From Yoonia sediminilitoris (GTDB lineage: Bacteria; Pseudomonadota; Alphaproteobacteria; Rhodobacterales; Rhodobacteraceae), in contig NZ_QBUD01000001.1 in the NCBI RefSeq assembly GCF_003058085.1, positions 496,001 to 560,000 of the forward strand: a DNA stretch of 64,000 nucleotides. Reading direction: 5' to 3'. The notes beneath the pieces are model-generated. The model was given only the letters and a program-made list of their open reading frames with translations, had not been told where the DNA came from and did not search any database. Positions 13,246-48,168 of this stretch are shown here, piece by piece (the stretch's first letter is position 1; each line of letters opens with the position of its first letter). The translations under genes were made by a program, and so were the position numbers.

Positions 13246-13251
13246 ACCGTG

Positions 13252-16169: not shown

Positions 16170-16187
16170 ACCAAAGAGGAGAGATCA

Positions 16188-20248: not shown

Positions 20249-20404
20249 GTCATACGCTCCGCTTATAGTGGTTTGCCAAGTCCTCGTCGGGCGTGACCCA
20301 ATCCCACTTCTTCGGGCAGATCATTCTGCAGAACATGGCTGGTCACGCGGGTGATTTTCATAAGACTTTGCCCTTGTTACAGGCGCTTGGCTTGCCGTCC
20401 TGCT

Positions 20405-20414
20405 TGGTATACCA
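20405..20414. promoter_or_regulatory. GntR-type operator TGGTATACCA, copy 1
   Basis: Perfect 10-bp palindrome TGGTATACCA with T-rich flanks, 28 bases before the ATG at 20442 and in the divergent gap with the PhyH gene. The same core recurs at 27169, 27224 and 37081, always at promoters of this island. Confidence 0.75.
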
Positions 20415-20441
20415 TTTTAAGAATGACAAGGGAGACAGGCA

Positions 20442-21341
20442 ATGGCAAGCGGCGCGGTGGCAATATTTGGGTTGGGTGCAATGGGGGCAGGCATGGCCGG
20501 TGCGTTGCTGCGGGCGGGTCTGACGACACATGGCTATGATATCAATGCCGATGCGGTTGCGCGGTTTCAGGCGGCGGGCGGTGCTACCGGTTCAGTAGAA
20601 GAGGTGGCCGAAACCCTTGATGCTGTTGTTGTGGTCGTCGTGAACGCGGCCCAGACAGAGGCCGTGTTGTTCGGCGACAACGGGATTGCGGCCAAGCTGT
20701 CTGCGGGCACTGTGGTCGTAGCCTGCGCGACGGTTGCGCCTGATGTGGCGCGCGATCTGGCCGCCCGCTGCGCTGATCTGGGGCTGCTTTATCTGGATGC
20801 GCCCGTGTCAGGTGGCACAATCCGGGCCGCCGATGGCACACTGTCCATTCTGGCCTCTGGCAGCCGTGCGGCATTTGCCAAGGCGCAACCTGCGCTGGAT
20901 GCGATGGCGTCACAGTTGTTTGATCTGGGTGATGAAGTCGGTGCTGGGTCGTCGATGAAGGCGGTCAACCAGATGCTGGTTGGTATCCAGATTGCGGCGA
21001 TGGGCGAGGCGCTGACCTTTGGCATGACCCAAGGGGTCGCGCCTGACAAATTCCTCGAGATCATCAGCCAATGCGCTGGCACAAGCTGGGCGCTGGAAAG
21101 CCGCGCGCCGCACGTGATCGCGGGCGATTACACGCCATTGAGTGCTGTTGATATCTGGCTCAAGGATCTTGGGATCGTGCTCGACATTGCCAAAGGGGCC
21201 AAGTTTGGCGCGCCTCTGACAGCCGCCGCTTTGCAGCAATATCTGGCAGCGTCAGGTTCTGGCCTTGGCAAAGAGGACGACGCGGCAGTGGCCAAAGTCT
21301 ATGCGCGCAATGCCGGATTGACGCTGCCGGGCGGTGAATAG
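20442..21341 (+). CDS. NAD(P)-dependent beta-hydroxyacid dehydrogenase (LtnD/HIBADH family)
   Basis: Cytoplasmic dehydrogenase of 299 residues. An N-terminal Rossmann motif GLGAMGAGMAG, the substrate-binding stretch DAPVSGGT and the catalytic Lys in GSSMKAVNQML place it in the 3-hydroxyisobutyrate/tartronate-semialdehyde/L-threonate dehydrogenase family. GGGAGACAGG precedes the start. An operator of the GntR regulon lies in its promoter. Linked to a DUF1537 kinase, it resembles LtnD, which oxidises a C4 acid sugar at C2 before phosphorylation; the exact acid is not determined. Confidence 0.87.
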   Translation: MASGAVAIFGLGAMGAGMAGALLRAGLTTHGYDINADAVARFQAAGGATGSVEEVAETLDAVVVVVVNAAQTEAVLFGDNGIAAKLSAGTVVVACATVAPDVARDLAARCADLGLLYLDAPVSGGTIRAADGTLSILASGSRAAFAKAQPALDAMASQLFDLGDEVGAGSSMKAVNQMLVGIQIAAMGEALTFGMTQGVAPDKFLEIISQCAGTSWALESRAPHVIAGDYTPLSAVDIWLKDLGIVLDIAKGAKFGAPLTAAALQQYLAASGSGLGKEDDAAVAKVYARNAGLTLPGGE

Positions 21342-21342
21342 G

Positions 21343-22674
21343 CTATCCGTCGAGGAACGTTTTCTGTTCGTCCCGCAATTTGAAGATATCTTGGTCGTCA
21401 ATGATCACGACGTCGTCGAGACTGACAATCTGATCTTTTTTGATGGGTCTCTTGAGCTTGATGTGATGCGCCAGACCAATCGGTAGGGCATTGCGCGCAC
21501 GCGACACGGCCGCAGGGATCGCCTTGGCCCAGACCTTGTAGCCGCCCTCGCCATCCAGATAGTCACCGGCGGCGAAGTCTCCTTTGGCGGTTGCGACTGC
21601 ATCCCCCCGCCAGCGGGACGAACGGCCCGTGGCCTCGCCCCGCAAACAGGCTGACAGCACCGAAACGGACGTTTCCAGCCCGATCAAATGGAACGGCCGC
21701 CACATCGATCCGTACCAGCCCGATGCATCTGTCAGCAGGCCATATTGCTGGAAGCAGGCGCGCGTATACGCATTGGGCGCACGGAATGTCACGAACATCC
21801 CGTACTGGATATTGTTCAACACAACACGCCCATCCGGTTCGCGGCTGGAGGCGATATCGACAAGGCCGGGGCGTGCCAATTGGCCGCCATCGCGTTGCGG
21901 TTTGAACACGGTCGCAAGGTCTTGCAGGCCCGCTGGATGAAAGGCGAGCCCGTCATCAGGGCAGTCCAGCCCTGTCGCGTTGGCCACAGCCGCCATCTCA
22001 ATCGCTGCCTTGGTGCCGTCGGTGAAGGAATTGTACATTTTGGGGTTAAAATCCCCGGCGGCGACCTCTTCCTCTGTCCAGCCGAAATAGTCCCATACCG
22101 TGTCAGGGGTTGAATAGCGGTAGGGGGGCGCAAAGTTCATGCCCTTGCCCGCCGCGACCAGTTCAAACCCGCAGGCGTGGACCCAATCGACCAATTCGCA
22201 AATCGCCGCGGGCTGGTCACCATAGGCCATGGAATAGACCACACCAGCCTGCCGTGCGCGGTCTGCCAGCACGGCACCGCACAGCACGTCAGCCTCGACA
22301 TTCACCATCACCACATGCTTGCCCGCCGCAATCGCGGCAAGGGCATGGCGCGTGCCTGCAAGCGGGTGGCCGGTTGCCTCTATTATGCAGTCTATCTCAG
22401 CCGTGGCGAACAGGTCAGCGGCATCCTCTGTCAGGCAGGTGGTGCCGCCCTTGACGGCATCCTGCATCGACTTGGCGGCATATTGGTCCGCATCCCATCC
22501 GGTGCGGGCCAGCGATGCTTTGGCCTTTTCCATATCCAGATCGGCAATGCCTACGATGTGGTAATTCTGGATGTGTTTCGCCTGCGCAAGGATCATTGAT
22601 CCGAACTTGCCAGCTCCGATCAGACCAATGCGCACCGGCGTTTCACGCGCGGCAAGAAGTGAAGACAAATTCAT
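21343..22674 (-). CDS. Homoserine-dehydrogenase-like oxidoreductase with C-terminal SAF-type domain
   Basis: Protein of 443 residues with an N-terminal Rossmann fold (GLIGAGKFGSMI, about residues 17-28), a middle region resembling the homoserine-dehydrogenase/Gfo-Idh group, and a C-terminal SAF-like part (ALPIGLAHHIKLKRPIKKDQ to the end). Such proteins are often misnamed flagellar FlgA relatives because of the SAF domain. It is convergent with the dehydrogenase at 20442 (one base between stop codons) and divergent from the transketolase operon. A role as an oxidoisomerase or reductase in sugar-acid breakdown is plausible. I do not recognise a characterised close homologue. Confidence 0.78.
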   Translation of the reverse strand: MNLSSLLAARETPVRIGLIGAGKFGSMILAQAKHIQNYHIVGIADLDMEKAKASLARTGWDADQYAAKSMQDAVKGGTTCLTEDAADLFATAEIDCIIEATGHPLAGTRHALAAIAAGKHVVMVNVEADVLCGAVLADRARQAGVVYSMAYGDQPAAICELVDWVHACGFELVAAGKGMNFAPPYRYSTPDTVWDYFGWTEEEVAAGDFNPKMYNSFTDGTKAAIEMAAVANATGLDCPDDGLAFHPAGLQDLATVFKPQRDGGQLARPGLVDIASSREPDGRVVLNNIQYGMFVTFRAPNAYTRACFQQYGLLTDASGWYGSMWRPFHLIGLETSVSVLSACLRGEATGRSSRWRGDAVATAKGDFAAGDYLDGEGGYKVWAKAIPAAVSRARNALPIGLAHHIKLKRPIKKDQIVSLDDVVIIDDQDIFKLRDEQKTFLDG

Positions 22675-22723
22675 CGTGACCCTCCTGTTCCGGCTTTATA
22701 GCACGCTGAGGCATTCAGGTATG

Positions 22724-22738
22724 TGAAGCTGTGCTTCA
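22724..22738. promoter_or_regulatory. Inverted repeat TGAAGC-N3-GCTTCA, candidate operator
   Basis: Exact 6-bp arms separated by TGT in the 137-bp gap between the divergent SAF oxidoreductase and transketolase genes. It begins with T and ends with A in a dyad, as LysR-type boxes often do, and a LysR gene ends the transketolase locus. Assignment to that regulator is a guess. Confidence 0.4.
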
Positions 22739-22811
22739 TTAATGATTAAGAAAATTATATTGATTTGCCATAGCCGTCATGGCCTGCTGTCCGCCACAAG
22801 GGGGGCATCCG

Positions 22812-23651
22812 ATGAATGTGAGCGGATCAAACGTCAGTCTGGCGCAACGGGCTTGGGCGATCAGACGCAATGCGCTGTTGATGGGAGAGGTGCAGGGCCA
22901 AGGCTATATCGGGCAGGCGCTGGGCGTGGCTGACGTGCTGGCTGTGTCCTACTTCCACGCTTTGTCCTACCGCGCGGACGATCCCGAATGGGAGGGCCGC
23001 GACCGTTTTTATCTGTCGATCGGGCACTATGCCATCGCACTTTACGCTGCAATGATCGAGGCAGGGATCCTTCCCGAAGATGAGATCGGCACCTATGGCA
23101 TGGATGACAGCCGGATGCCGATGTCGGGCATGGCGGCCTATACTCCGGGGATGGAAATTACCGGCGGGTCGCTGGGTCATGGTCTGGGAATTGCGGTTGG
23201 CGCCGCATTGGGCCTCAAGCGCAAGAAGAACCCGGCCTTTGTCTATAACATGCTGTCCGATGGCGAATTGGGCGAGGGTTCAACATGGGAGGCGGTGATG
23301 TCCGCCGTGCAGTGGAAGCTGGATAATCTGATTGCCATTGTCGATTTCAACAACCAGCAGGCGGATGGCGCCACGACGCATGCGCTGGCCCAGGTGCCAG
23401 AGGCAGCAAAATGGGAAGCGTTCGGCTGGTTCGCCCAAACCGTCGATGGCAACGACATGGACGCGGTGGTTGCGGCCTTTGATGCCGCGCGCGCGCATGA
23501 GGGCGCGCAGCCGCGCGTCATTATCTGCAACACCAAGATGTGCAAGGGTGTGCCGTTTCTGGAGGATCGCGAAATCACCCATTTCGTGCGCGTCGAACCT
23601 GATGAATGGGCCAAGGCGCTTGCCATACTGGATGAGGAGAAACCGCAATGA
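22812..23651 (+). CDS. Transketolase, N-terminal (TPP-binding) subunit
   Basis: First half of a split, two-subunit transketolase, 279 residues. The TPP motif region is intact: SDGELGEGS followed by WEAVMSAVQWKLDNLIAIVDFNNQQADG-like residues ending the motif. ATG 22812 follows AAGGGGGG; an in-frame ATG at 22779 lacks a ribosome site. It is coupled by ATGA to the C-terminal subunit. Split transketolases are frequent in catabolic islands; one known case is apulose-4-phosphate transketolase (AptA/AptB). With ketose phosphates made nearby, it would transfer a C2 unit to an aldose phosphate. Confidence 0.88.
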   Translation: MNVSGSNVSLAQRAWAIRRNALLMGEVQGQGYIGQALGVADVLAVSYFHALSYRADDPEWEGRDRFYLSIGHYAIALYAAMIEAGILPEDEIGTYGMDDSRMPMSGMAAYTPGMEITGGSLGHGLGIAVGAALGLKRKKNPAFVYNMLSDGELGEGSTWEAVMSAVQWKLDNLIAIVDFNNQQADGATTHALAQVPEAAKWEAFGWFAQTVDGNDMDAVVAAFDAARAHEGAQPRVIICNTKMCKGVPFLEDREITHFVRVEPDEWAKALAILDEEKPQ

Positions 23652-24685
23652 ACGCGCAGGAACTTTCGCGCAGGCAGTCGAAGTATACGGCACGCAAAGC
23701 GCCCAAAGGCGAACGGTTGGCGACCTCGGCGATGATCGCGTCGCTTGACAGCGAGGGGCGCGACACGGTTGCGGCCCCCTTCGGGCACGCGCTGGTCGAT
23801 ATTGCCCAAACCCGCGATGACATCGTGGGCCTGACCGCTGATCTGTCAAAATACACCGACCTGCATGTCTTTGCCAAAGCTTATCCCGACCGTTTTTACC
23901 AGATGGGCATGGCCGAAGCGGTGATGATAAGTGCCGCTGCCGGACTTGCCCGCGAAGGCTTTACACCCTTTGCCACGACCTATGCGGTTTTCGCGTCGCG
24001 TCGCGCCTATGACTTTATCATCATGGCGATCGCAGAGGAAAACCTGCCGGTCAAGATCGTCTGCGCGCTGCCCGGACTAACGACGGGCTATGGCCCCAGC
24101 CATCAGGCAACCGAGGATCTGGCGATCATGCGCGGGATGCCGAACCTGACGATCATCGACCCTTGCGACGCGACAGAGATTGATCAGGCAACACGCGCCA
24201 TCGCGGATCATCCGGGACCGGTTTATATGCGTCTGCTGCGCGGGCAGGTGCCCGATGTGCTGGGCGAATACGGCTATCAGTTCAAGTTGGGTAAGGCGCA
24301 GATGTTGCGCGACGGCAAGGATGTGCTGTTTGTGTCGTCCGGCTTCATGACCATGCGGGTGCTGGATGCGGCCGGTAAATTGCGGGCCGATGGGATTGAT
24401 TGCGGCGTGCTGCATGTGCCCACGATCAAACCACTGGATACCGCGACGATCATCGCAGAGGCCGGCAAGGGCGGGCGGTTGGTGGTCACGGCTGAAAACC
24501 ATTCCGTCACCGGTGGCTTGGGAGAGGCGGTCGCGGCCACCCTGATGCGGGCCGGAGTGCATGTGCCCTTCCGCCAGATTGGCCTGCCTGATGCCTTCCT
24601 CGATTCGGGCGCATTGCCGACCCTGCACGATCAGTATGGCATTTCGGTCGATGCGGTGACGACCTCGGTCAAGGGATGGATGTGA
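23648..24685 (+). CDS. Transketolase, C-terminal subunit
   Basis: Second subunit of the split transketolase, 345 residues, with the pyrimidine-binding domain (YQMGMAEAVMISAAAGLA, including the Glu that activates TPP) and the C-terminal transketolase domain (GRLVVTAENHSVTGGLG). The first about 40 residues form a charged extension. Overlaps of ATGA upstream and TGATG downstream tie it to the N-terminal subunit and to the SDR gene. Confidence 0.88.
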   Translation: MNAQELSRRQSKYTARKAPKGERLATSAMIASLDSEGRDTVAAPFGHALVDIAQTRDDIVGLTADLSKYTDLHVFAKAYPDRFYQMGMAEAVMISAAAGLAREGFTPFATTYAVFASRRAYDFIIMAIAEENLPVKIVCALPGLTTGYGPSHQATEDLAIMRGMPNLTIIDPCDATEIDQATRAIADHPGPVYMRLLRGQVPDVLGEYGYQFKLGKAQMLRDGKDVLFVSSGFMTMRVLDAAGKLRADGIDCGVLHVPTIKPLDTATIIAEAGKGGRLVVTAENHSVTGGLGEAVAATLMRAGVHVPFRQIGLPDAFLDSGALPTLHDQYGISVDAVTTSVKGWM

Positions 24686-25440
24686 TGAAATTACTGGACG
24701 GAAAGACTGCGATTATCACAGGTGCAGCAAGCCCGCGCGGCTTGGGCAAGGCGACCGCTTTGCTGTTCGCGCAGCACGGTGCGCGCGTTGCAATCCTTGA
24801 TCTGGATATGGATGAGGCCAGCGAGGCTGCGGCCGATTTGCCGGGGCAGGGGCATCAGGGATTCGTGTGCGATGTCACTGACAGGGCTGCCTGTATGGTT
24901 GTCGCAGAAGAGGTCATCGCACAGTTCGGCCACGTCGATATTGTCGTCAACAACGCGGGGATTACCCAGCCTTTGAAGTTGATGGATATTCAGCCCGATA
25001 ACTATGATGCGGTACTGGATGTGAATCTGCGTGGCACGCTTTATATGTCGCAGGCGTTGATCCCGCATTTCAGGGCGCGTCAGAACGGGAGCATCGTCAA
25101 CATGTCTTCGGTGTCGGCGCAAAGGGGCGGTGGCATCTTTGGCGGGCCGCATTATTCAGCGGCCAAGGCTGGAATTCTGGGCCTGACCAAGGCGATGGCG
25201 CGCGAACTGGCACCCGACGGGGTGCGGGCCAATGCGATCTGTCCCGGTTTCATTGATACCGATATCACCGCCGGCAAACTGACAAATGACATGCGCGCGC
25301 AGGTTCTGGCGGGCATTCCCCTAGGCCGCGCGGGCACCGCGCAGGATGTGGCGGGCTGCTGTCTGTTTCTGGCGTCTGACCTGTCGGCCTATGTCACGGG
25401 GTCAGAGGTTGACGTGAATGGCGGCTCGCTCATTCACTGA
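24685..25440 (+). CDS. Short-chain dehydrogenase/reductase
   Basis: SDR of 251 residues. NAD(P) motif TGAASPRGLGKA near the N terminus, NNAG at the start of strand 4, catalytic Ser in NMSSVSAQRG, and YSAAK for Tyr and Lys. I use ATG 24685, which overlaps the transketolase TGA and follows AAGGGA, rather than ATG 24676. The Asp at the end of beta2 (LDLDMDEA) suggests NAD over NADP. It is third in the transketolase operon, so a polyol or sugar-acid oxidation that feeds the transketolase is likely. The stop overlaps the convergent LysR gene. Confidence 0.87.
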   Translation: MKLLDGKTAIITGAASPRGLGKATALLFAQHGARVAILDLDMDEASEAAADLPGQGHQGFVCDVTDRAACMVVAEEVIAQFGHVDIVVNNAGITQPLKLMDIQPDNYDAVLDVNLRGTLYMSQALIPHFRARQNGSIVNMSSVSAQRGGGIFGGPHYSAAKAGILGLTKAMARELAPDGVRANAICPGFIDTDITAGKLTNDMRAQVLAGIPLGRAGTAQDVAGCCLFLASDLSAYVTGSEVDVNGGSLIH

Positions 25441-26399
25441 TCGGGGCGCAATTGGGCAGAGGCATCCACCTGCGTGACCGTCAGCCCGTTGTCGGCCAGC
25501 AGCCGTTCAATTCTGTGCTGGTGCGCGGCGGCCTGCCCCTGTGCCCAATCCATGAACAGCCTGACCGGGCGGCGTTTGAGAAAGCGCGCAGGGGACAGCA
25601 TCCAATAGGCTGGAAACGACAGGACCGGCAGCGCCGGGGTCAGCGGAACAAGGCGACCATCGGTCAGTTCAGCCTCAGCCAGGGCAAGTGATTCCAGCAC
25701 CACGCCCGCGCCGTCACAAGCCAGTTGCAGCGCCATGGAAGACCGGTCCATCAGTACCGATTTGACATTGGTCGCACGGGTTTGGCCATGGTGCCACAAC
25801 CAGAAATCCCATTGGCACAAAGCCCGCGCACTGTCGATCAGACGGGCCTTTGACAGGGGGTCATCAGGTGGCAGGCGCGCCAGGTAGGCAGGGCTGACCA
25901 ATGGCAGGACATGATCGGCAACCAACGGTGTGCTGTGCAAACCCGCCCAGTTTCCGGTGCCATAGCGCACCTCGATATCCATGATCTCGCGGTCAAAATC
26001 GGTGGGGTCAGGGGCGGCATCCACGCGCAGGTCAAAATCAGGATATTGCCGGATGAAATCGGAAAGACGCGGGCCAAGCCAGCGCACGCCAAAACTGGGG
26101 GATACGCGCAGGTTCAGTCGGGCGGCGTTGCGGGTGCCGCGCAGGTTCGCCTGCACATCCGACAGCATCCTGAGCGCGGTGCCGGTGGTCTGGGCCAGCA
26201 ATTCGCCTTCAAGCGTCAGGGACAGGTTGCGGCCCGCCCGACGGAACAGTTTCACGCCAAGCTGTTGTTCGAGCAGTTTGATTTGCTGGCTGACACCGGA
26301 AGGCGAAATCGATAATTCCTCGGCGGCGCGGGTGATACTGCCCCGGCGCGCGACCGCTTCGAAATAGGGGAGTGCGTTCAGGTTCGGCGGGCGTGTCAT
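25434..26399 (-). CDS. LysR-family transcriptional regulator (GcvA-like)
   Basis: Regulator of 321 residues. N-terminal winged helix-turn-helix (NALPYFEAVARRGSITRAAEE, then SPSGVSQQIKLLE) and a LysR effector domain. The wording around LNALPYFEAVA resembles the GcvA/AmpR branch. ATG 26399 is chosen so that the protein begins MTRPPNLNAL; longer starts extend into the end of the GntR gene. It follows the GntR gene by four bases on the same strand, so both regulators share a transcript. It may control the transketolase or SAF genes, which lack the TGGTATACCA site. Confidence 0.86.
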   Translation of the reverse strand: MTRPPNLNALPYFEAVARRGSITRAAEELSISPSGVSQQIKLLEQQLGVKLFRRAGRNLSLTLEGELLAQTTGTALRMLSDVQANLRGTRNAARLNLRVSPSFGVRWLGPRLSDFIRQYPDFDLRVDAAPDPTDFDREIMDIEVRYGTGNWAGLHSTPLVADHVLPLVSPAYLARLPPDDPLSKARLIDSARALCQWDFWLWHHGQTRATNVKSVLMDRSSMALQLACDGAGVVLESLALAEAELTDGRLVPLTPALPVLSFPAYWMLSPARFLKRRPVRLFMDWAQGQAAAHQHRIERLLADNGLTVTQVDASAQLRPDQ

Positions 26400-26403
26400 G
26401 GGC

Positions 26404-27087
26404 CTAGCCGTTGTCTGTGGCCGGATCATCAGATGCGGAGGCAAGATCTTCTTTTACGCAGGTGATGATGTCCTCGCGCAGGTTGGCAAGATGCTTGCCG
26501 ATGGTGGCGCGGATTGCTTGCGGGTCGCGGGCGCGCAAGGCGTCAACAATGCTGCTGTGATGGTCGATCACCCGTTCGCGGTTGCGCCGCTGTACAGCAG
26601 CAAGGTAGCGGGCGCGCCAAAGACGTGCCAGAAACTTGTGATGGATTTCGGACAGTGGCACATTATGGGCGGCATTTGCCAGCGCGCTGTGAAAGCTCAT
26701 GTCGGTTTCGAACATATCCAGCGGATCGGCGGTATCGAACCGCGCGGCCATGTCATCAACGATGTCGGCAATGCTTGCGATCTCTTCCTCTGTCGCGCGC
26801 GCGCAGGCCAACTCGCCTGACAGCTTCTCGACCGAAAGCAGTACCTCGACGTCATCCGATATCTGTTTGATGGTGGGAATTGACACAATCGGGCTGCGCG
26901 CCGGGCGCAATTCGACCAGCCCTTCGGTGGCAAGGATGCGGATCGCTTCGCGCAAGGGGGTGCGACTTACGCCCAGTTCAGCCGCATTGTCACGTTCCTT
27001 GATGGCGGAACCGGGTGGTAATTTACCTTGCAGAATATCACGTCGAAGCTGATTGGCGATTTGGGCAGCAAGGATTTTCTGTGTCAT
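26404..27087 (-). CDS. GntR-family (FCD) transcriptional regulator of the sugar-acid island
   Basis: Regulator of 227 residues: GntR winged helix-turn-helix (about 8-75, with ELGVSRTPLREAIRILATEGLVEL) and an FCD effector domain with metal/ligand-type histidines (FHSALANAAHN and DHHSSIVDAL). It is divergent from the TRAP transporter operon, and two TGGTATACC(A/G) palindromes lie in the shared gap. The other two copies stand in front of the dehydrogenase at 20442 and the LysE/DenD-dehydrogenase promoters. FCD GntR proteins commonly bind such TNGTNNNACNA dyads, so this is the best candidate for the repressor. Confidence 0.9.
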   Translation of the reverse strand: MTQKILAAQIANQLRRDILQGKLPPGSAIKERDNAAELGVSRTPLREAIRILATEGLVELRPARSPIVSIPTIKQISDDVEVLLSVEKLSGELACARATEEEIASIADIVDDMAARFDTADPLDMFETDMSFHSALANAAHNVPLSEIHHKFLARLWRARYLAAVQRRNRERVIDHHSSIVDALRARDPQAIRATIGKHLANLREDIITCVKEDLASASDDPATDNG

Positions 27088-27168
27088 TCAGCAGCATCCG
27101 CTCTGGAAGGTGTCGCGCGTGGCGCCGATTTTTCAAATCTCGCAAGCGAAAGACCGTTTCTTACGATT

Positions 27169-27178
27169 TGGTATACCG
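27169..27178. promoter_or_regulatory. GntR-type operator, copy 2 (one mismatch)
   Basis: TGGTATACCG, one base off the palindrome TGGTATACCA, flanked by TT and AAAA. It lies nearer to the divergent GntR gene, so it probably serves autoregulation. It is 55 bases from copy 3. Confidence 0.68.
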
Positions 27179-27223
27179 AAAATCGTTGATTGTCGAGATT
27201 GCACTCGCTACGCTCTGCCTCGA

Positions 27224-27233
27224 TGGTATACCA
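27224..27233. promoter_or_regulatory. GntR-type operator TGGTATACCA, copy 3
   Basis: Perfect palindrome within GATGGTATACCATC (a 14-bp perfect dyad), 75 bases before the TRAP binding-protein start at 27309. It is likely to control the operon running to the RuBisCO-like gene. Confidence 0.75.
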
Positions 27234-27308
27234 TCTTACGTCACGCCAGTGGAGGGGCGTGTTACCAAAAACGGCGATCAAAAAATCGCACAGGGAGGAA
27301 ATAAAAAT

Positions 27309-28319: not shown

Positions 28320-28355
28320 GCTTCCCAGCAGAGGTTCTCTGATAGAATGACAGCT

Positions 28356-28384
28356 AGGCGGGCCTGATTTGGGCCCGCCTTTCC
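28356..28384 (+). terminator. Hairpin between TRAP binding-protein and permease genes
   Basis: AGGCGGGCC (28356-28364) pairs exactly with GGCCCGCCT (28372-28380) around a 7-base loop, followed by TTCC. Partial termination here would let the binding protein be made in excess over the permease, a common arrangement. Confidence 0.7.
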
Positions 28385-28428
28385 TAACCGGGCGTACCGT
28401 CCGGGAGTGGCATGAGGGGAGGCATGTG

Positions 28429-30836: not shown

Positions 30837-30843
30837 GCGGCTG

Positions 30844-31884
30844 ATGGGGGCACCGCTTGCGATATGCGTTGTGGGGGGCGGTTCGATAGGGATGCGCCAT
30901 ATCGGCTGCGCGCAGGCCTCGGACCTTGTGCGCCTTTCGGCGGTGGTCGAGGCCGACGCGGCCCGTCGCGATGCGCTGGCTGCCATGGGCCTGCCTGTTG
31001 TAGCAGACATTGATGCGGTCCCGGCAGACACCAAAGCCGCGGTGATCGCAACCCCAACGCCCAACCATGCGCAGGTTGGGCTGGATTGTCTTGCAAAGGG
31101 TTGGGGCGTTCTGGTTGAAAAGCCGCTGACCGAAACATTGGCGGATGCGGATTTGCTTTGCGCACGGGCCGCAGCTTTGGGCCTGCCGCTTGTGGCGGGT
31201 CATCATCGCCGCTGCCACCCGTTTGTCGCGCACGCCCGGACCCGGTTGCAGGACATTGGCGATATGGTCGCGGTGCAGGGGATCTGGGCGCTGCGCAAGC
31301 ACGACAGCTACTATGATGTTGCATGGCGCCGCGCGCCGGGGGCGGGGCCGATCCTGACCAACCTGAGCCACGAAATTGATTTGCTGCACTGTCTGGCGGG
31401 GCCCATCACCGAAGTCACGGCGATGAACAGCAATGCGACCCGCGGCTTTGCGGTTGAGGACACGTCAGCCATTTCCCTGCGGTTCGCCAGCGGCGCGCTG
31501 GGGACTTTCATTCTGTCGGATGCGGGGGTATCGCCATGGGCGTTCGAGGCCGCAACCGGCGAAAACCCCGCCATTGCCGTGCGGGGTGAAGACCCGTTGC
31601 GGTTTATCGGCACGGCAGGCGCGCTGTCCTTTCCGACACTGCAGATGTGGAAAGGTGACGGGCAGGCGGCCCCCGACTGGCAGCATCCCTTGAACAAGAT
31701 CGCAGCACCCGAACTGCCCCGCGTTGACGCAATCGCCGAGCAGCTTGACCGCTTTGCCGCTGTGGTTGGCGGCGCAGAGGATGATCTGATCGCAACCGGT
31801 GACGACGGACGGCGGACAATGCAGGTGCTTGATGCGATCCACAAGGCCGCGCACACCGGACAATCGCAAGCGATCAGCCCATGA
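30844..31884 (+). CDS. Gfo/Idh/MocA-family oxidoreductase
   Basis: NAD(P)-dependent oxidoreductase of 346 residues. N-terminal Rossmann motif VVGGGSIGMRHIG, the EKPLTETLADA motif with the catalytic-region Lys, and a C-terminal substrate domain containing SHEIDLLHCLAGP. Members act on sugars, inositols and sugar acids; D-apiose dehydrogenase belongs to this superfamily. It is placed directly after the TRAP genes and before EamA, kinase and RuBisCO-like genes in one tight operon, so it probably oxidises the imported compound. ATGA overlap with the next gene. Confidence 0.87.
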   Translation: MGAPLAICVVGGGSIGMRHIGCAQASDLVRLSAVVEADAARRDALAAMGLPVVADIDAVPADTKAAVIATPTPNHAQVGLDCLAKGWGVLVEKPLTETLADADLLCARAAALGLPLVAGHHRRCHPFVAHARTRLQDIGDMVAVQGIWALRKHDSYYDVAWRRAPGAGPILTNLSHEIDLLHCLAGPITEVTAMNSNATRGFAVEDTSAISLRFASGALGTFILSDAGVSPWAFEAATGENPAIAVRGEDPLRFIGTAGALSFPTLQMWKGDGQAAPDWQHPLNKIAAPELPRVDAIAEQLDRFAAVVGGAEDDLIATGDDGRRTMQVLDAIHKAAHTGQSQAISP

Positions 31885-32801
31885 AGCAGCTTGTCGCCCC
31901 GCGCGAGGAACGCACAGCCGTGGGGCTTTTCGCGATGGCGGGCGCTGTGTTTTTCTTTACGCTGATCGATACTTCGGCCAAATGGCTGGTGATGGCCGGA
32001 CTGCCAGCCATTCAGGTGGTTTTCGTGCGCTACCTTGTCCATCTGTTGATGTCTCTGGCTGTTTTTCTGCCGCGCGACGGGTTTGCGGCCTTGCGCTCAA
32101 ACGCGCCCAAGCGGCAGGCCCTGCGTTCGCTTTTTTTGTTTTGCAGTACGGCGCTTAATTTCACGGCCCTGAAATACCTGCCGATAACAGTGACCACGAC
32201 AATCATGTTTGCGGGTCCCATCGTGGTGACGCTGCTGGCCATCCCCATTTTGGGCGAACGGGTCGGATGGCACCGGATTATGGCGGTTTGCGTCGGCTTT
32301 GTGGGTGTTGTGCTTGTCATGCAGCCATGGGGTGTGGGGTTTCATCCGGCCATGTTCCTCAACATCGGCGCGCTCTGTCTGGCCGCGCTCTATTTTGTGA
32401 TGACGCGACTTCTGGCGGGGGTCGAAAGCAACGCGACCAGCCAAATCTGGGCATCGGGGCTTGCGGCCATTTGCTTGCTGCCTTTCGCGCTGACACAATG
32501 GGGTTGGCCGGGAACCGCCGCTGACTGGGCATTTTTCCTTCTCATCGGGATATTTGGCGGCAGTGGACATATTCTGGCGACGGCGGCACACCGTATGGCT
32601 GATGCATCCATTCTGGCACCAGTTGTCTATATCCAGATTTTCCTCGCGTCCTTGGCGGGGATCGTCTTTTTTGGCACATGGCCCACTATTTGGACGCTCG
32701 GAGGTGGGCTGATCATTATCGCGGCTGGAATCTATATCTGGCATCGCGAACGTCATAACAAAGTCTCCACCGCGACTATCGCAAAGATCACGCCAAAATG
32801 A
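31881..32801 (+). CDS. EamA/DMT-family transporter
   Basis: Membrane protein of 306 residues with about ten hydrophobic helices and two EamA repeats (first repeat starts VGLFAMAGAVFFFTLIDTSAK; second at about residue 155). The family exports or imports small metabolites. It lies inside a catabolic operon, coupled by ATGA on both sides, so it may relieve toxic intermediates or provide a second uptake route. The charged C terminus lies after the last helix. Confidence 0.85.
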   Translation: MKQLVAPREERTAVGLFAMAGAVFFFTLIDTSAKWLVMAGLPAIQVVFVRYLVHLLMSLAVFLPRDGFAALRSNAPKRQALRSLFLFCSTALNFTALKYLPITVTTTIMFAGPIVVTLLAIPILGERVGWHRIMAVCVGFVGVVLVMQPWGVGFHPAMFLNIGALCLAALYFVMTRLLAGVESNATSQIWASGLAAICLLPFALTQWGWPGTAADWAFFLLIGIFGGSGHILATAAHRMADASILAPVVYIQIFLASLAGIVFFGTWPTIWTLGGGLIIIAAGIYIWHRERHNKVSTATIAKITPK

Positions 32802-34144
32802 CAAAGCCGGTGCCAGACCCGCTGTTGGCCTGGCTCGGTGATGACTTCACCGGTGCGGCGGCTGTGATGGAGGTGCTTGCCTTTGCGGGTTTGCCTGCGG
32901 TCTTGTTCCTCAAGCCACCATCGCCTGACCGGTTGGCGGCCTTTCCGGGCATGCGCGGCATCGGGGTTGCATCCATGGCCCGCACGCGGTCGCCTGCGTG
33001 GATGGATGAAAACCTGCCCGACATATTCGCTTTGCTGGCGGATACGGGGGCGGAATTCGTGCAGTACAAGATCTGTTCAACGCTGGATTCAGCCCCGCAT
33101 ATCGGGTCTGTCGGACGCGCCATGGATATCGGCGCGGCACGCTTTGGACCTGCCGCCATTCCCATTCTCGTGGCCGCCCCTAAAATGCGCCGCTATCAGG
33201 CTTTTGGCCAGCTCTTCGCAGGCACTGATGCTGGCGTGTTCCGGCTGGACCGCCACCCGGTCATGGCACGCCATCCCGTCACCCCCATGACCGAAGCGGA
33301 TGTTGCGCGCCACCTGCAAGCGCAAACGGATATGCCCGTTACTTGTCTGGATATTGAGGCGCTGGCCGATCCGGTCCGTGCCGATGTGTCCCTTGTTGCG
33401 GGGCATGGCGTCACGATTGATCAGATGACACCGGCTGATGTCGCTGCCGCCGGGCGGTTGTTGTGGGACCACAGGGAGACGCACCGGTTTGTCGTGGGAT
33501 CGCAGGGCATCGCCTATGCACTGGTCGCGCATTTGCGTCACTTGGGAATTTTGCCCGCTGAAATCCCGGTGGCGGGCATCGCGGGGGCCAATCGTATGGC
33601 GGTCGTGTCAGGGTCAGTCTCGTCCACCACACAAAATCAGATCGACTGGGCGCGTGGCAACGGGTTTGCCTGCATTCCGTTTGATGCTGTGTCATTGTGT
33701 GGCGACGGCCCGGATGCTGCCGACGCGCAGGCGATGGCCATCAAGACCGGATTGTGCGCGATAGAACAAGGGCAGGTGCCGTTGATCTATACTGCGTCGG
33801 GGCCTGACGACCCTGCGGTCGCACGGCTGCGCGCGGCAGCGGGCGATGCTTTGTCAGCGGTGAACGACAGGATTGGTCAGGCACTTGGGCGGATCATGTC
33901 CGCCATAGTACAGCAGGGGCAACTCGACCGAGTGGTCGTGTCTGGCGGCGACACATCGGGCCATGTTTGCCAGGCCTTGGGAATTGACGCGCTCTCGGCG
34001 GTTGCGCCGACCATTCCGGGGGCTGCGATCTGCAGGGCGCATGGAACAGGCCCAATCAATGGGCTGACGGTGGCACTCAAGGGTGGGCAAATGGGCAGCC
34101 ACGACTATTTCGGCTGGGTTCAGGCCGGAGGAGGTACCAGATGA
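32798..34144 (+). CDS. DUF1537-family four-carbon acid sugar kinase (OtnK/OiaK-like)
   Basis: Sugar-acid kinase of 448 residues. The N-terminal substrate domain starts with WLGDDFTGAAAVMEVLA (GDDFTGA motif, about residues 10-16). The C-terminal nucleotide-binding domain has VVSGGDTSGHV and a Gly-rich end (GPINGLTVALKGGQMG). Family members phosphorylate C4 acids (OtnK, DtnK) or 3-oxo-isoapionate (OiaK). Coupling by ATGA to a RuBisCO-like gene is the arrangement known for the OiaK/OiaC and OiaX apionate pathways, which makes a 3-oxo acid the favoured substrate. No OtnC aldolase or OtnI isomerase is nearby. Confidence 0.87.
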   Translation: MTKPVPDPLLAWLGDDFTGAAAVMEVLAFAGLPAVLFLKPPSPDRLAAFPGMRGIGVASMARTRSPAWMDENLPDIFALLADTGAEFVQYKICSTLDSAPHIGSVGRAMDIGAARFGPAAIPILVAAPKMRRYQAFGQLFAGTDAGVFRLDRHPVMARHPVTPMTEADVARHLQAQTDMPVTCLDIEALADPVRADVSLVAGHGVTIDQMTPADVAAAGRLLWDHRETHRFVVGSQGIAYALVAHLRHLGILPAEIPVAGIAGANRMAVVSGSVSSTTQNQIDWARGNGFACIPFDAVSLCGDGPDAADAQAMAIKTGLCAIEQGQVPLIYTASGPDDPAVARLRAAAGDALSAVNDRIGQALGRIMSAIVQQGQLDRVVVSGGDTSGHVCQALGIDALSAVAPTIPGAAICRAHGTGPINGLTVALKGGQMGSHDYFGWVQAGGGTR

Positions 34145-35400
34145 CACGTTTGCAAGCCACATATGACATCGAAAGCCCGGTAGGCGTGGCGCAAGCCGCT
34201 GCCGTGCTGGCGGGCGAACAATCAACCGGCACCTTCATCAGGCTAGCCGCCGAGACCGACAGCCTGCGCGACCGGGCCGCGGCACGGGTCGAAGCGGTCA
34301 CAATCACGGGCAAATCGGATCACCCCGCACTACCGTGCCGCCTTTCGGCTGACTGCTATGAACAGGGCACAGTCACGATCAGCTGGCCGGTCGATACATT
34401 CGGTGCGTCACTCCCCAACATACTGGCGACCATTGCGGGCAATCTGTTCGAGTTGGCCGAAGTGTCCGCCATTCGGCTGGTATCGCTGGACGTGCCCGAT
34501 AGCATTGCCGCAGCACTGCCCGGCCCGCAGTTTGGTATCACCGGCAGCCGCCGCCTGATGGGGGTCGATACCGGCCCGATGATTGGAACGATCATCAAAC
34601 CCAGCGTGGGGCTAAGCGCAGATGAGACCGCAGAACTGGCCAAAAATCTGGCGCTGGCGGGCATTGATTTCATCAAGGACGATGAGTTGCAGGGCAATGG
34701 CCCCGCCTGTCCGCTGAAGGACCGGGCCATGGCCGTGATGGGCGCACTTGATGCCGCAGCCCAGAAAACCGGACGCAAGGTGATGTATGCCTTCAACATT
34801 ACCGACGAAATCACCGACATGTGGCGCCATCTTGAGATGCTTGAAAAACTGGGGGCCACCTGCGCGATGGTGTCGCTCAACTCTATCGGACTGGCTGGCC
34901 TGCGCGCCGTGCGCGACCAAAGCCCGCTGCCTGTTCACGCCCACCGAAACGGCTGGGGGCTGATGTCACGGTCCCCGCACATCGGGGTGGCCTATCCGGT
35001 CATGCAAAAGCTGTGGCGCATGGCGGGGGCGGACCACCTGCATGTGAACGGGCTTGCCAGCAAATTCACCGAACCTGACAGCGTGGTCGCCGAAGCCGCA
35101 GTGTCAGTGCAGGCCCCGGTCAGCGCAGGGCACGCCCAAACCGCGTTGCCTGTCTTTTCATCTGGCCAGACCGCGTGGCAGGTTGGCCCGTCAATGGCAT
35201 TGCTGGGCAATGACGATTTTCTGTTTTGCGCAGGCGGCGGCATCATGAGCCATCCGGGCGGCCCGGCGGCGGGGATCGCCAGCCTGCGGCAGGCGGCAGA
35301 GGCACAAAAGCTGGGGCTGACCCCACATGACTATGCCCGCGACCACCCCGAACTGGCCGCGGCACTGGACAGTTTCAAAGGCGCGGTCAACCGAGGCTAG
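34141..35400 (+). CDS. RuBisCO-like protein (form IV, acid-sugar catabolic type)
   Basis: RuBisCO large-subunit-fold enzyme of 419 residues. Catalytic positions look complete: Lys153 in GTIIKPS, the carbamylation motif IKDDE with Lys179, Asp181 and Glu182, HAHRNGWG (266-273), DHLHVNG (His299/His301), Lys308 in LASKFTE and Ser341 in SSGQTAW. Surroundings differ from true RuBisCO, and no small subunit or phosphoribulokinase is present, so carbon fixation is unlikely. With the upstream DUF1537 kinase it resembles OiaC (3-oxo-isoapionate-4-phosphate decarboxylase) or OiaX (transcarboxylase/hydrolase giving 3-phosphoglycerate and glycolate). The stop overlaps the convergent DenD-like gene. Confidence 0.88.
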   Translation: MTRLQATYDIESPVGVAQAAAVLAGEQSTGTFIRLAAETDSLRDRAAARVEAVTITGKSDHPALPCRLSADCYEQGTVTISWPVDTFGASLPNILATIAGNLFELAEVSAIRLVSLDVPDSIAAALPGPQFGITGSRRLMGVDTGPMIGTIIKPSVGLSADETAELAKNLALAGIDFIKDDELQGNGPACPLKDRAMAVMGALDAAAQKTGRKVMYAFNITDEITDMWRHLEMLEKLGATCAMVSLNSIGLAGLRAVRDQSPLPVHAHRNGWGLMSRSPHIGVAYPVMQKLWRMAGADHLHVNGLASKFTEPDSVVAEAAVSVQAPVSAGHAQTALPVFSSGQTAWQVGPSMALLGNDDFLFCAGGGIMSHPGGPAAGIASLRQAAEAQKLGLTPHDYARDHPELAAALDSFKGAVNRG

Positions 35401-36362
35401 GCCGCGGGTTTATCGTCTTCCAGATAATAGCGGATATTATCTTCGAAACTGTCGTCTGCGGACAGCCCCAGCGCCTCTGCCCGGTCGGCATGGATGTCCC
35501 ATTTCCAGCCTGACACGATGCGCTTGACCTCTGGCTGTGCGTCCCAGCGGATAAGTTGGGCGGGGGCGTCGCCTGCGACAGCGGTCATCGCCTCAATCAG
35601 TTGCGCAATCGACCAGACCCGCCCCGGCATCTGCATCACGCGGTTTGTGCCAAGGTCCATGGCCTGCAATTCCGCCCCTTTGATCAGGTTTTCCACGCAT
35701 TTGCGCGGGCTGAGGTAGTAATGCAGAAAGTCGGGAGCGACCGGGCAGATCGCCTCTTGGCCATTCAGGGGCTCGCGCAAGATCGACGACATAAAGCCGG
35801 ACGCCGCCCGGTTCGGTTTGCCCGGACGGACCGAGATTGTGGGCAACCGGAAGGCGCGCCCATCAACGTAACCCTTGCGGGAATAGTCGTTGATCAGGAT
35901 TTCTCCGATGGCCTTTTGACCGCCATAGGATGTCTGCGGATTGGGGTAGCTGTGATCGCCCAACGGGTTGGGAATATCGCCGCCATAGACCGCAATGGAA
36001 GATGTGAACACGACAACAGGTGCTGTGCCCAGGGCGCGGCACCGTTCCAGCACATTGTAAGTGCCAAACAGGTTGATATTCATGCCCGCCTCAAAATCCT
36101 CTTCGGCATGGGCCGACACGATGGCAGCCAACAGGTAGATCACGTCGGTATCGGCCTTGATCAGCTGATTGACAGAGGCCGCATCGGCAATGTCACAGGT
36201 TACGGTTTCCACATCAAAGGGGGCGTCCAGACCGGTTGGGTCTTTCACGTCGGCAAGCGTCAGCCGGGTGATTGCATCGCCGCGCAGCGTCCCTTTTGCA
36301 GCCAGCGCGTGGGCCAGTTTTTGCCCCACAACGCCACCGCCGCCGATAATCAGAATGTTCAT
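35397..36362 (-). CDS. NAD-dependent dehydrogenase/epimerase, D-erythronate dehydrogenase (DenD)-like
   Basis: Extended-SDR protein of 321 residues. Rossmann motif GGGGVVGQKLA, catalytic Ser/Thr region VFTSSIAVYGG and the active-site pair in SYGGQK (Tyr and Lys). The family includes DenD, which oxidises D-erythronate to 2-oxo-tetronate before a DUF1537 kinase acts. AAGGACACGAG precedes the ATG. It is transcribed after the LysE gene from a promoter with a GntR operator. The DenD role is supported by context, but substrate identity is inference. Confidence 0.82.
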   Translation of the reverse strand: MNILIIGGGGVVGQKLAHALAAKGTLRGDAITRLTLADVKDPTGLDAPFDVETVTCDIADAASVNQLIKADTDVIYLLAAIVSAHAEEDFEAGMNINLFGTYNVLERCRALGTAPVVVFTSSIAVYGGDIPNPLGDHSYPNPQTSYGGQKAIGEILINDYSRKGYVDGRAFRLPTISVRPGKPNRAASGFMSSILREPLNGQEAICPVAPDFLHYYLSPRKCVENLIKGAELQAMDLGTNRVMQMPGRVWSIAQLIEAMTAVAGDAPAQLIRWDAQPEVKRIVSGWKWDIHADRAEALGLSADDSFEDNIRYYLEDDKPAA

Positions 36363-36396
36363 CTCGTGTCCTTTCAGTATTGCTCGCAGGGTGGGG

Positions 36397-37011
36397 TCAT
36401 GCTGCCCGCAGCCCCGAAATCAGGGCCAGCGCCACAACGGCCAGCATTGACGCGGCCATGGCATAGTTGATCTTGCGTTGCGCGCTGTCTGACAGGTTCA
36501 GCCGATGCAGGCTGGCCCCGGCCCAGAGCCACGCCAGATGGATCGGTATCCAGATTGCGTTGACAATCAGCAGCTTGGTAATCGTTTCATAGGTCAGGTT
36601 CTCTGGGGCGTAGGGAAAGCCTGTGAACAGGCTGGTGTTCACCGCATAGGCTTTGGGGTTGATGGCCTGCAAAAGGACACCAGCCCCGATTCCGGGCGCG
36701 ACGGTTGCGGCAATGAAGGCGATTTTTGAGCCCGCAAAGGCGATGCGTGCGGCCAGATACAGCAGATAAAGCAACGACGCCGCCATCAGCACCCAGCGGA
36801 TCACCGGAACGGACAGGACAATCGCGGCCAATCCGGTGATAACCCCAAGTGCGACGATGTTGGTCCCCAAGAACAGCCCCGCCACATAGCGAAGCCCTTT
36901 GCCAAAACCATATCCCGCACCGACGCCAGCCGTTGACAACACACCCGGTCCGGGTGTTGCAATCAGGAAAAAGACCGCAAGGGCAAAGGTAATCACGGGC
37001 AGGACCCCCAC
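36397..37011 (-). CDS. LysE/RhtB-family exporter
   Basis: Small polytopic membrane protein of 204 residues with about six hydrophobic segments and the family-type start FLIATPGPGVLSTAG. GTG 37011 is the only reasonable in-frame start, because a stop codon lies just upstream in frame. LysE members export amino acids or related small acids. It heads a two-gene unit with the DenD-like gene and is divergent from the dehydrogenase at 37228. Confidence 0.8.
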   Translation of the reverse strand: MGVLPVITFALAVFFLIATPGPGVLSTAGVGAGYGFGKGLRYVAGLFLGTNIVALGVITGLAAIVLSVPVIRWVLMAASLLYLLYLAARIAFAGSKIAFIAATVAPGIGAGVLLQAINPKAYAVNTSLFTGFPYAPENLTYETITKLLIVNAIWIPIHLAWLWAGASLHRLNLSDSAQRKINYAMAASMLAVVALALISGLRAA

Positions 37012-37080
37012 GGCATCACGGGATCAAAACACTCTGATCTGGTCGGAAACTGCACAGCGGTCCTTGCATCACTTGATGAA

Positions 37081-37090
37081 TGGTATACCA
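37081..37090. promoter_or_regulatory. GntR-type operator TGGTATACCA, copy 4, inside a longer dyad
   Basis: Perfect TGGTATACCA flanked by CTTGATGAA on the left (37072-37080) and TTTCATCAAG on the right (37091-37100). The outer arms are complementary with a one-base offset, making a roughly 29-bp dyad. It lies between LysE/DenD-like genes and the divergent dehydrogenase gene. Confidence 0.75.
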
Positions 37091-37227
37091 TTTCATCAAG
37101 GCCGTTGGCACAAGGTTTGTCAATGCGGAAACGGTCAATTCATAATGCCTGCCGGGCACGGGTATAACCGTGTGGGTGAAATTTGACAGCGGCCCATCAC
37201 CTGCCCGCGATCAAAAAGGGAAGAGAC

Positions 37228-38145
37228 ATGAGCGACATGAAAATCGGCTTTATCGGCGTGGGCTACATGGGCCACGGCATGGCGAAGAACCTTGTTGAAA
37301 AGGGCTATCCACTGTGGGTCAAGGCCAACCGCAACCGAGAACCCGTCGATAACCTGGTCGCCAAAGGGGCGACAGAAGTCACGACAGCCAAAGAAATGGC
37401 CGCAACCTGTGATGTAATTCATCTGTGCTTGTCAAATTCGCCGCAGGTCGAATCCGTGTTTCGCGGGCCTGACGGCATTCTGGCGGGCGCACGGCCGGGG
37501 TTGATCGTGATTGATACCACCACCGCTGATCCAACCTCGACTGCCGCACTCGCCGCAGAACTTGAAGCCAAGGGTGGCACCATCGTTGACGCGCCTCTGG
37601 GCCGGACACCGAAGGAAGCCGAAGCCGGAACTCTGGACGCGATGGTGGGCTGCGACGACGCGACATTTGCCAAGGTCAAGCCGATCCTTGACTGCTGGGC
37701 AGGCAACATCACCCATGTCGGCCCCACCGGGAGCGGCCACAAGATGAAGCTGTTGATGAACTTCATCTCGATGAGTTATGCCGCCCTTTATGCCGAGGCG
37801 ACAGTGCTGGGCGCTGCCGTCGGCATCACGCCCTCAAAGGTGCGCGAAGTCATCGGGTCCAGCCGTTTGTCGAACGGTTTCTTTGACACATTCATGACCT
37901 ATGCCGTGGACCGCGAAGAGGTGCATAAATTCACCATCTCGAACGCGGCGAAAGACCTGCGGTATCTCAATGCCATGGCCGATGATGCCGGTTTGATGAC
38001 GGTCATGGCGTCGGCGGCCAAACAGTATTTCGCCCATGTCGAGGCATCTGGCAATGGCGGTGACTTTGTGCCCAAAATCACCGACCATGTTGCCCTGCTG
38101 AACGGATTGGATATGGAAAAGGAAGCGGCCAAAGGGCGCAGTTGA
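37228..38145 (+). CDS. NAD(P)-dependent beta-hydroxyacid dehydrogenase (GarR/HIBADH family)
   Basis: Second 6-phosphogluconate-dehydrogenase-type enzyme of the island, 305 residues. Rossmann motif GVGYMGHGMA (about 8-17), a substrate motif near VDAPLGRTPKEAEAG, and the catalytic Lys in GSGHKMKLLMNF. ATG 37228 follows AAGGGAAGAGAC. The substrate loop reads PLGRTP rather than PVSGG as in the gene at 20442, so the two dehydrogenases probably act on different acids. Expression should follow operator copy 4. Confidence 0.87.
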   Translation: MSDMKIGFIGVGYMGHGMAKNLVEKGYPLWVKANRNREPVDNLVAKGATEVTTAKEMAATCDVIHLCLSNSPQVESVFRGPDGILAGARPGLIVIDTTTADPTSTAALAAELEAKGGTIVDAPLGRTPKEAEAGTLDAMVGCDDATFAKVKPILDCWAGNITHVGPTGSGHKMKLLMNFISMSYAALYAEATVLGAAVGITPSKVREVIGSSRLSNGFFDTFMTYAVDREEVHKFTISNAAKDLRYLNAMADDAGLMTVMASAAKQYFAHVEASGNGGDFVPKITDHVALLNGLDMEKEAAKGRS

Positions 38146-40577: not shown

Positions 40578-40634
40578 GGTTTTTCTCCCCAAGCGAAAAG
40601 CTGCACCCTCGGAAGTGAGGGGGCAGGTGTTTTA

Positions 40635-42206: not shown

Positions 42207-42221
42207 GATGCATTCCCTCCC

Positions 42222-42749: not shown

Positions 42750-42766
42750 GTCTCCTCCCCTTGATG

Positions 42767-43725: not shown

Positions 43726-48168
<4,443 letters not shown>

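Follow-up and report, generated by a model that had tools for sequence, protein, structure and literature searches.

We describe a catabolic gene island in a 64,000-nt stretch of the Yoonia sediminilitoris contig NZ_QBUD01000001.1 (positions 496,001 to 560,000 of the forward strand; hereafter the window), in which a DUF1537 kinase and a form IV RuBisCO-like protein are joined to a split transketolase (TkA and TkB, together TkAB) and to DRL, an oxidoreductase related to the isoprenoid enzyme DXR-II. The association of the island genes is more than chance. Tentatively, we read the island as a TRAP-fed system in which D-apionate, or a branched sugar acid much like it, may be degraded along two predicted branches, one of the OiaK/OiaX type and one in which a DRL enzyme of the DLO2 type works with the transketolase. 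From gene content, protein families, synteny, co-occurrence and the loss of two of three phosphonate anchors in DRL, we infer the substrate, the direction of reaction, the carbon shift and the products. Branched-chain sugar acids from plants would then likely support growth, in part through a new route, here predicted, that straightens the carbon skeleton and then cuts it; the apionate half is of an already known kind, and the half formed by DLO2 and transketolase would be new. If true, this would give a first function to DLO2, uncharacterised in 2013 in the accessible text of PMC3847144. It would also mean a kinase-free, carbon-saving use of branched sugar acids, for example from the apiose of plant cell walls, and would make it testable whether DXR-like enzymes originated in catabolism or in isoprenoid synthesis. 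A search that covered mostly listings, most subscription papers being outside its coverage, found no paper that appears to assign DLO2 a function, to connect a DXR-like enzyme with a transketolase, or to link the use of methylerythritol with a DXR-II operon.

An earlier note, made from the window sequence alone, had listed the kinase, the RuBisCO-like protein, the split transketolase, a Gfo/Idh/MocA oxidoreductase, two hydroxyacid dehydrogenases and a DenD-like enzyme. All of these lie where that note placed them, and profile matches confirm their families. DRL was not named as such, and the single ‘Gfo/Idh/MocA’ entry could mean either gene. We regard the observation as confirmed and its interpretation as partly supported. 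The island is best drawn at 19304-38145; this includes a PhyH gene outside the range of the earlier note, with homologues in 9 of 12 related DRL-TkAB clusters from other genomes. The island genes are, in order:

19304-20248 (-): PhyH-type protein (phytanoyl-CoA dioxygenase family); PF05721, 91 bits; cluster homologues at 54-62%
20442-21341 (+): LtnD-type protein (L-threonate dehydrogenase), HIBADH family; NF043037, 395.7 bits against a cutoff of 350
21343-22674 (-): DRL, DXR-II-like oxidoreductase of the DLO2 type, predicted oxidoisomerase, 443 aa; PF21135, 3UPL/3UPY, tree and residues
22779-23651 (+): TkA, N-terminal half of the split transketolase; PF00456; nearest solved chain 6YAK, 193 bits
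23648-24685 (+): TkB, C-terminal half of the split transketolase; PF02779 and PF02780; 35% to AptB
24676-25440 (+): SDR dehydrogenase, predicted to oxidise a linear sugar acid; PF13561; 75-84% homologue adjoining TkAB in 12 of 12 clusters
25434-26444 (-): LysR-type regulator; PF00126 and PF03466
26404-27087 (-): GntR/FCD-type regulator; PF00392 and PF07729
27300-28319 (+), open frame from 27015: TRAP solute-binding protein DctP; PF03480; 55% to a DctP on contig C25 of the same genome
28369-29241 (+): TRAP small permease DctQ; open reading frame, synteny and homology to the C25 TRAP genes
29241-30836 (+): TRAP large permease DctM; homology to the C25 TRAP genes; 90-91% in loci L021 and L022
30844-31884 (+): Gfo/Idh/MocA oxidoreductase (Gfo); PF01408 and PF22725
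31881-32801 (+): EamA-type transporter; PF00892
32798-34144 (+): DUF1537 kinase, OiaK-like; PF07005 and PF17042; OiaK model, 435 bits against a cutoff of 700
34141-35400 (+): form IV RuBisCO-like protein, OiaX-like; OiaX model, 390 bits against a cutoff of 700; 3NWR, 371 bits; tree
35397-36362 (-): DenD-type protein (D-erythronate dehydrogenase); NF043036, 393.3 bits against a cutoff of 325
36397-37011 (-): LysE-type exporter; PF01810
37183-38145 (+): second HIBADH-family dehydrogenase; best model TIGR01505 (tartronate semialdehyde reductase), 181 bits, under the cutoff of 341

The Gfo, EamA, kinase and RuBisCO-like genes form a tight run with 4-nt overlaps, the last of them between kinase and RuBisCO-like gene.

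The core of the island recurs in a sample of 341 genomes of the order Rhodobacterales, searched with thresholds of E ≤ 1e-60 for DRL, ≤ 1e-70 for TkA and ≤ 1e-90 for the RuBisCO-like protein. DRL is present in 45 genomes, and in 15 of them, Y. sediminilitoris included, its identity is at least 73%, a line set after the hits were seen. We took ∼20 kb around each of the 14 other DRL genes at or above this line, and six regions around Gfo or RuBisCO-like matches. DRL adjoins the split transketolase in 13 of the 15 genomes (window included); among the 14 others it adjoins TkAB together with SDR in 12, and all 12 of these clusters have TRAP genes (DctP at 68-82%). GntR recurs in 11 of the 12, LysR in 10, Gfo in 11 and PhyH in the 9 already mentioned, and in 8 a hydroxyacid dehydrogenase lies between TkB and SDR. 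Gfo homologues at 50-58% are found in 16 other genomes of the sample, 11 of them inside a DRL-TkAB region. Neither DRL nor TkA was found at the above thresholds in any of the 19 further genomes sampled from the genus, so the island is accessory.

TkA occurs in 32 of the 341 genomes and the RuBisCO-like protein in 48. With the genome of the window left out, the RuBisCO-like protein is present in 22 of 31 genomes with TkA and 25 of 309 others (one-sided Fisher p 7e-15), and in 12 of 14 genomes with DRL of at least 73% identity compared with 35 of 326 (p 9e-10). Related genomes are non-independent in these tests. Counted by genus, where any sampled genome with the gene suffices, the figures are 15/21 vs 14/103 for TkA (p 2e-7) and 7/8 vs 22/116 for DRL (p 1e-4). 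The 30 genomes with only more distant DRLs served as a control and were not enriched for the RuBisCO-like protein (5/30 vs 30/296, p 0.21); the corresponding counts for TkA were 3/30 and 16/296 (p 0.25). Where a genome has TkA as well as the RuBisCO-like protein (23 genomes, that of the window included), the two lie within 125 kb in 10 cases, farther apart on one contig in 4 and on different contigs in 9.

The earlier suggestion of an unknown pathway is plausible, for a different reason from the one then given: the gene next to the split transketolase encodes a DXR-like enzyme, probably of the DLO2 family. DRL carries the catalytic domain PF21135 (187 bits, cutoff 27), and the only solved chains that match it are 3UPL and 3UPY (194 bits), the latter being Brucella DXR-II (PMC3847144, accessible text). 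A family scan finds DRL proteins akin to homoserine dehydrogenase-type oxidoreductases. The genome has this single DRL-type gene and one separate canonical DXR, so DRL is not needed for isoprenoids. The accessible text of PMC3847144 divides the family into DXR-II, able to make methylerythritol phosphate (MEP), and the groups DLO1 and DLO2, then uncharacterised; four DLO1/DLO2 proteins did not complement a DXR mutant. The same text gives Lys191, Lys193 and Thr229 as the fosmidomycin anchors of DXR-II; at position 229, DLO2 has Pro, Ser or Ala instead.

In a quick maximum-likelihood tree of 83 DRL rows, midpoint-rooted and with a long-branch warning, the window protein lies inside a 23-row clade (SH-aLRT 100), itself within a larger 74-row group that also holds a C. 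necator N-1 gene (L213). Seven DXR-II-type rows, one of them from S. fredii NGR234, stand apart. PMC3847144 (accessible text) lists the C. necator gene as DLO2 and the S. fredii gene as DXR-II, our rows being matched to it by strain and not by accession. The three anchors correspond to Lys177, Met179 and Ala223 in the window, two of them thus being lost, and the same Lys/Met/Ala is found in 23 of 23 rows of the clade (with a single gap column in the alignment at Lys193). Over the 74 DLO2-like rows position 229 is Ala in 23, Ser in 43 and Pro in 8, the residues described for DLO2. Forty-five columns that are invariant in the seven DXR-II rows are retained in at least 96% of the 74, which hints at more in common with DXR-II than the cofactor site. 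From these alignments, DLO2 enzymes such as DRL may share the core chemistry of DXR-II and act on a substrate lacking the phosphate. The window DRL resembles the Brucella enzymes (3UPL, 3UPY) in fold family and in many invariant positions, but differs from them in its replaced anchors, its clade, its neighbour TkAB and the presence of a canonical DXR. With the published DLO2 proteins, which have no known function in the accessible text of PMC3847144, it shares Ala at residue 229 and, going by strain, apparently its clade position; unlike them, it is tied to a split transketolase.

TkA and TkB align with ordinary transketolase and with AptAB across the thiamine-diphosphate region, and 6YAK, the solved chain nearest to TkA, is the N-terminal part of a split transketolase. 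AptA and AptB form the split transketolase pair of D-apiose use in E. coli SE15 (PMC13001218, accessible text). Like them, TkAB is a two-gene transketolase in a sugar catabolic cluster; unlike them, at 35% identity to each, it stands with a TRAP transporter, and no apulose kinase is among the annotated island genes, as the earlier note had said. On a Sulfitobacter plasmid (L015) TkAB, SDR, TRAP and LysR form a stand-alone unit, which the kinase-free cleavage proposed below would explain, since SDR would make a similar keto acid from a linear acid.

The kinase and the RuBisCO-like protein group with the apionate type. A D-apionate route of ApnO, OiaK (DUF1537) and OiaX (RuBisCO-like) is annotated in Rhodobacteraceae strain LCG007 (PMC11747546, accessible text). 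The window shares with it an overlapping kinase/RuBisCO-like pair, nested in an ApnO-linked clade, but the pair falls below the OiaK and OiaX cutoffs, is joined to TkAB and DRL, and has no ApnO in the window (tblastn with the ApnO of L013, best E 2.8). The low scores do not point to a new function, since a pair from Roseibium that adjoins ApnO scores alike (424 and 416). As ApnO query we used a Roseibium gene annotated as phosphogluconate-dehydrogenase C-terminal protein, which we take to be ApnO. A homologue is present in 71 of the best 80 of 574 RuBisCO-like loci, and of the nine without it three (L027, L029, L092) end at contig edges. The eight closest loci among these 80 (L017-L024) all have ApnO, the six closest also DenD and a second hydroxyacid dehydrogenase. 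In a FastTree tree of 85 RuBisCO-like rows, 74 of which have ApnO in their loci, the window protein pairs with L017 in a group whose other rows have ApnO. A new clade was rejected on this position. The protein falls with the apionate type, one half of what the earlier note had said would speak against its proposal. Its view that parts of the apionate and C4-acid routes are combined in a hybrid island holds, with the pair nested among ApnO loci and with DenD and LtnD passing their curated models. In L021, L022 and L096 the TkAB-SDR-GntR-TRAP genes are joined to ApnO, kinase and RuBisCO-like genes (in L021 only the TkB end is within the stretch examined), and L055 unites DRL and DenD with ApnO, kinase and RuBisCO-like protein. 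An in-frame TGA in related RuBisCO-like genes was considered and dismissed, being the C-terminal stop in L107 and L116.

Elsewhere in the genome, contig C25 carries ApnO (59% to the L013 ApnO; PF16896), a kinase, a second RuBisCO-like protein (62-63%) and TRAP genes; the DctP related to that of the window adjoins ApnO there. The window also resembles the D-erythronate/L-threonate route (DenD, LtnD, OtnI, OtnK, OtnC) in having DenD and LtnD above cutoff, but profile and blast searches did not find OtnI, OtnK or OtnC beside them in the window. The absence of OtnC and OtnI claimed in the earlier note stands for the window, where OtnC had no blast match at E 1e-5, and fails for the genome: OtnK and OtnC are paired on contig C4 (L286:7940-9867) and an OtnI-like gene is on contig C16 (302 against a cutoff of 325). 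The C4 OtnC is split in two pieces by an in-frame stop, which may mean a pseudogene or an error in the sequencing. The LtnD of the window has an 84% relative in L018 that adjoins OtnK- and OtnC-like genes.

A DXR-type enzyme turns a straight ketol into a branched aldehyde, which is then reduced. In the first proposed branch, of known type, ApnO from C25 would make 3-oxo-isoapionate, the DUF1537 kinase would phosphorylate it, and the RuBisCO-like protein is predicted to decarboxylate or split the product. The second branch would be new and kinase-free. Here the DLO2 enzyme would catalyse a DXR-type carbon shift as an oxidation: one of the hydroxymethyl arms of D-apionate, HOOC-CHOH-C(OH)(CH2OH)2, would be oxidised and the skeleton rearranged to a straight 4-keto-pentonate, HOCH2-CO-CHOH-CHOH-COOH, a product proposed because D-apionate has two hydroxymethyl arms on its tertiary carbon. 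The 4-keto-pentonate is a plausible transketolase donor. With glyceraldehyde-3-phosphate as acceptor of its two-carbon ketol, TkAB would form xylulose-5-phosphate and leave tartronate semialdehyde, which a hydroxyacid dehydrogenase would reduce to glycerate. Alternatively, TkAB might cut 3-oxo-isoapionate to hydroxypyruvate, likewise without a kinase. Linear pentonates would enter at the 4-keto-pentonate, through SDR.

Several observations weigh against this two-branch reading. DRL is dispensable for TkAB, since 19 of the 32 TkA genomes lack DRL at 73% identity or above. Two DRLs of the clade (L186, L187) are without TkAB and belong to a smaller unit of DRL, a quinol-monooxygenase-like gene, a hydroxyacid dehydrogenase and TRAP genes; this type of unit is also found on plasmids L004, L005 and L006, and on L003 without adjoining TRAP genes. 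L055 carries both DRL and ApnO, on which ground DRL as a direct stand-in for ApnO was rejected. Because of the complete ApnO-kinase-RuBisCO-like set on C25, the window pair would not be needed for apionate, or may act on a different substrate. Both the second HIBADH protein and LtnD score far under the tartronate semialdehyde reductase cutoff. A dihydroxyacetone kinase lies near TkAB on two plasmids (L014, L016), and an apulose-type substrate or cleavage therefore fits better there. A fumarylacetoacetate-hydrolase-type gene is present in all 12 other clusters, a galactarate-dehydratase-like gene in 10 and a talarate-dehydratase-like gene in 8, and blast found none of the three in the window. 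Against NCBIfam cutoffs, the cluster genes score 395 vs 500 (2,4-didehydro-3-deoxy-L-rhamnonate hydrolase), 380 vs 731 (galactarate dehydratase), 241 vs 500 (talarate dehydratase) and 335 vs 350 (LtnD-like). The shared TRAP substrate may instead pass through a 2-keto-3-deoxy acid; as the window lacks the hydrolase and dehydratases, relatives may handle this substrate differently, or more than one acid may be served.

DLO2 could instead be a plain aldonate dehydrogenase that oxidises a linear C4-C5 acid at C2 or C3 with no carbon moved, the keto acid going to TkAB or to the kinase/RuBisCO-like pair, and the island would then serve erythronate, threonate or pentonates. One locus, L193:5301-12479, speaks for this reading and for the two-branch one, with TRAP genes, a DLO2 gene (52%), a small gene that reads as monooxygenase-like, OtnK (379.5 against a cutoff of 350), OtnC (267.3 against 250) and an OtnI-like gene (216.6 against 325). 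This compact operon is of the tetronate type and has neither LtnD nor DenD, whose place before the Otn genes is taken by DLO2. Lying upstream of OtnK and OtnC, this DLO2 should supply a 2- or 3-oxo-tetronate. Because an oxidoisomerase acting on 2-C-(hydroxymethyl)glycerate and a plain tetronate dehydrogenase suit this context equally, we rate the dehydrogenase no lower than somewhat unlikely. It also agrees with the kinship of DRL proteins to homoserine dehydrogenase-type oxidoreductases and with LtnD and DenD above their cutoffs in the window, but the window already has two tetronate dehydrogenases, and the 45 retained DXR-II positions, with their hint of more than a common cofactor site, also weigh against it. 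Rather unlikely, in our view, is the chance neighbourhood of two unrelated modules, namely an apionate outlet that lost ApnO (C25 supplying it) and a TkAB/SDR/DRL module for another acid, joined by accident or by a shared regulator and transporter. The stand-alone unit of L015 would suit such modules, as would the presence of ApnO, kinase and RuBisCO-like genes at most loci among the best 80 of 574 and the fact that the loci nearest to the window RuBisCO-like protein (L017-L020) are without TkAB in the stretch examined. Against this stand the co-occurrence across genomes and genera and the repeated joining in L021, L022 and L096, and in L055 with DRL.

TkAB might also be AptAB-like and cut apulose or its phosphate; SDR would then produce the apulose from apiitol, and DRL would have a side role. 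AptA and AptB are likewise encoded by two genes (PMC13001218, accessible text), and dihydroxyacetone kinase adjoins TkAB in L014 and L016. We nevertheless consider this improbable: blast found no dihydroxyacetone kinase in the window, no FGGY kinase is among the annotated island genes, the transporter is a TRAP and not a sugar ABC system, and the identity of TkA to AptA is little above that to ordinary transketolase (32%). Finally, DRL belongs to the same family as DXR-II and could be a spare isoprenoid enzyme, which is highly improbable. A role in MEP synthesis was rejected on the canonical DXR and the two lost anchors; in addition, the gene lies outside the DXR-II clade, DRL at E 1e-60 is in 0 of the 19 other genomes of the genus, and the four DLO1/DLO2 proteins of PMC3847144 (accessible text) did not complement the mutant.

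The two-branch reading can be extended to the whole family, an extension that is speculative and on balance unlikely. The DXR-type rearrangement would be a catabolic tool run backwards: DLO2 enzymes would straighten unphosphorylated branched acids, the split transketolase would cut the products without a kinase, and catabolism may be where the entire DXR-II/DLO superfamily began, every member having a ketol-taking enzyme as its partner. DXR-II with E1/E2 would degrade methylerythritol phosphate to acetyl-CoA and glyceraldehyde-3-phosphate, isoprenoid synthesis being a borrowed role. In the sister DXR-II clade, genes for E1-alpha, E1-beta and E2 lie directly downstream of DXR-II in 7 of 7 loci (L206, L212, L214, L247, L248, L249, L250). 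They are of the pyruvate/acetoin dehydrogenase type, at or slightly under the pyruvate dehydrogenase cutoffs (one locus fully scored), and several of the loci also have sugar ABC, sugar kinase or PTS glucitol genes. This arrangement would fit a breakdown of methylerythritol phosphate via DXP. We count it in favour of the two-branch reading that these DXR-II partners are, like TkAB, thiamine-diphosphate enzymes.

In L010, L209 and L213 a DLO2-type gene directly follows a dihydroxy-acid dehydratase gene and an LtnD-like gene, an arrangement reminiscent of branched amino acid synthesis with its reductoisomerase and dehydratase steps. On a haloarchaeal plasmid of Natronosalvus rutilus (L011) a DRL gene adjoins genes for dihydroxy-acid dehydratase and a TRAP transporter; ∼20 kb away lies a pair of genes for a RuBisCO-like protein and a four-carbon-acid kinase.

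Among solved structures the best match to the TRAP protein DctP is 4PE3 (178 bits, ligand unnamed), followed by binders of lactate, keto acids and polyols; a ligand assignment from structures was rejected, the top match having no named ligand and the next ones being of mixed type. Beyond the island, window positions 38743-42770 hold one run of genes for a cytochrome c, a glucose/sorbosone dehydrogenase-like protein, a GMC oxidoreductase and a small protein, perhaps a periplasmic sugar oxidation system supplying the TRAP. The flanks, judged from translations, consist of sulfur-oxidation and nitrate/sulfonate-type ABC genes (1-16200) on one side and glycogen metabolism genes (44399-55541) on the other.

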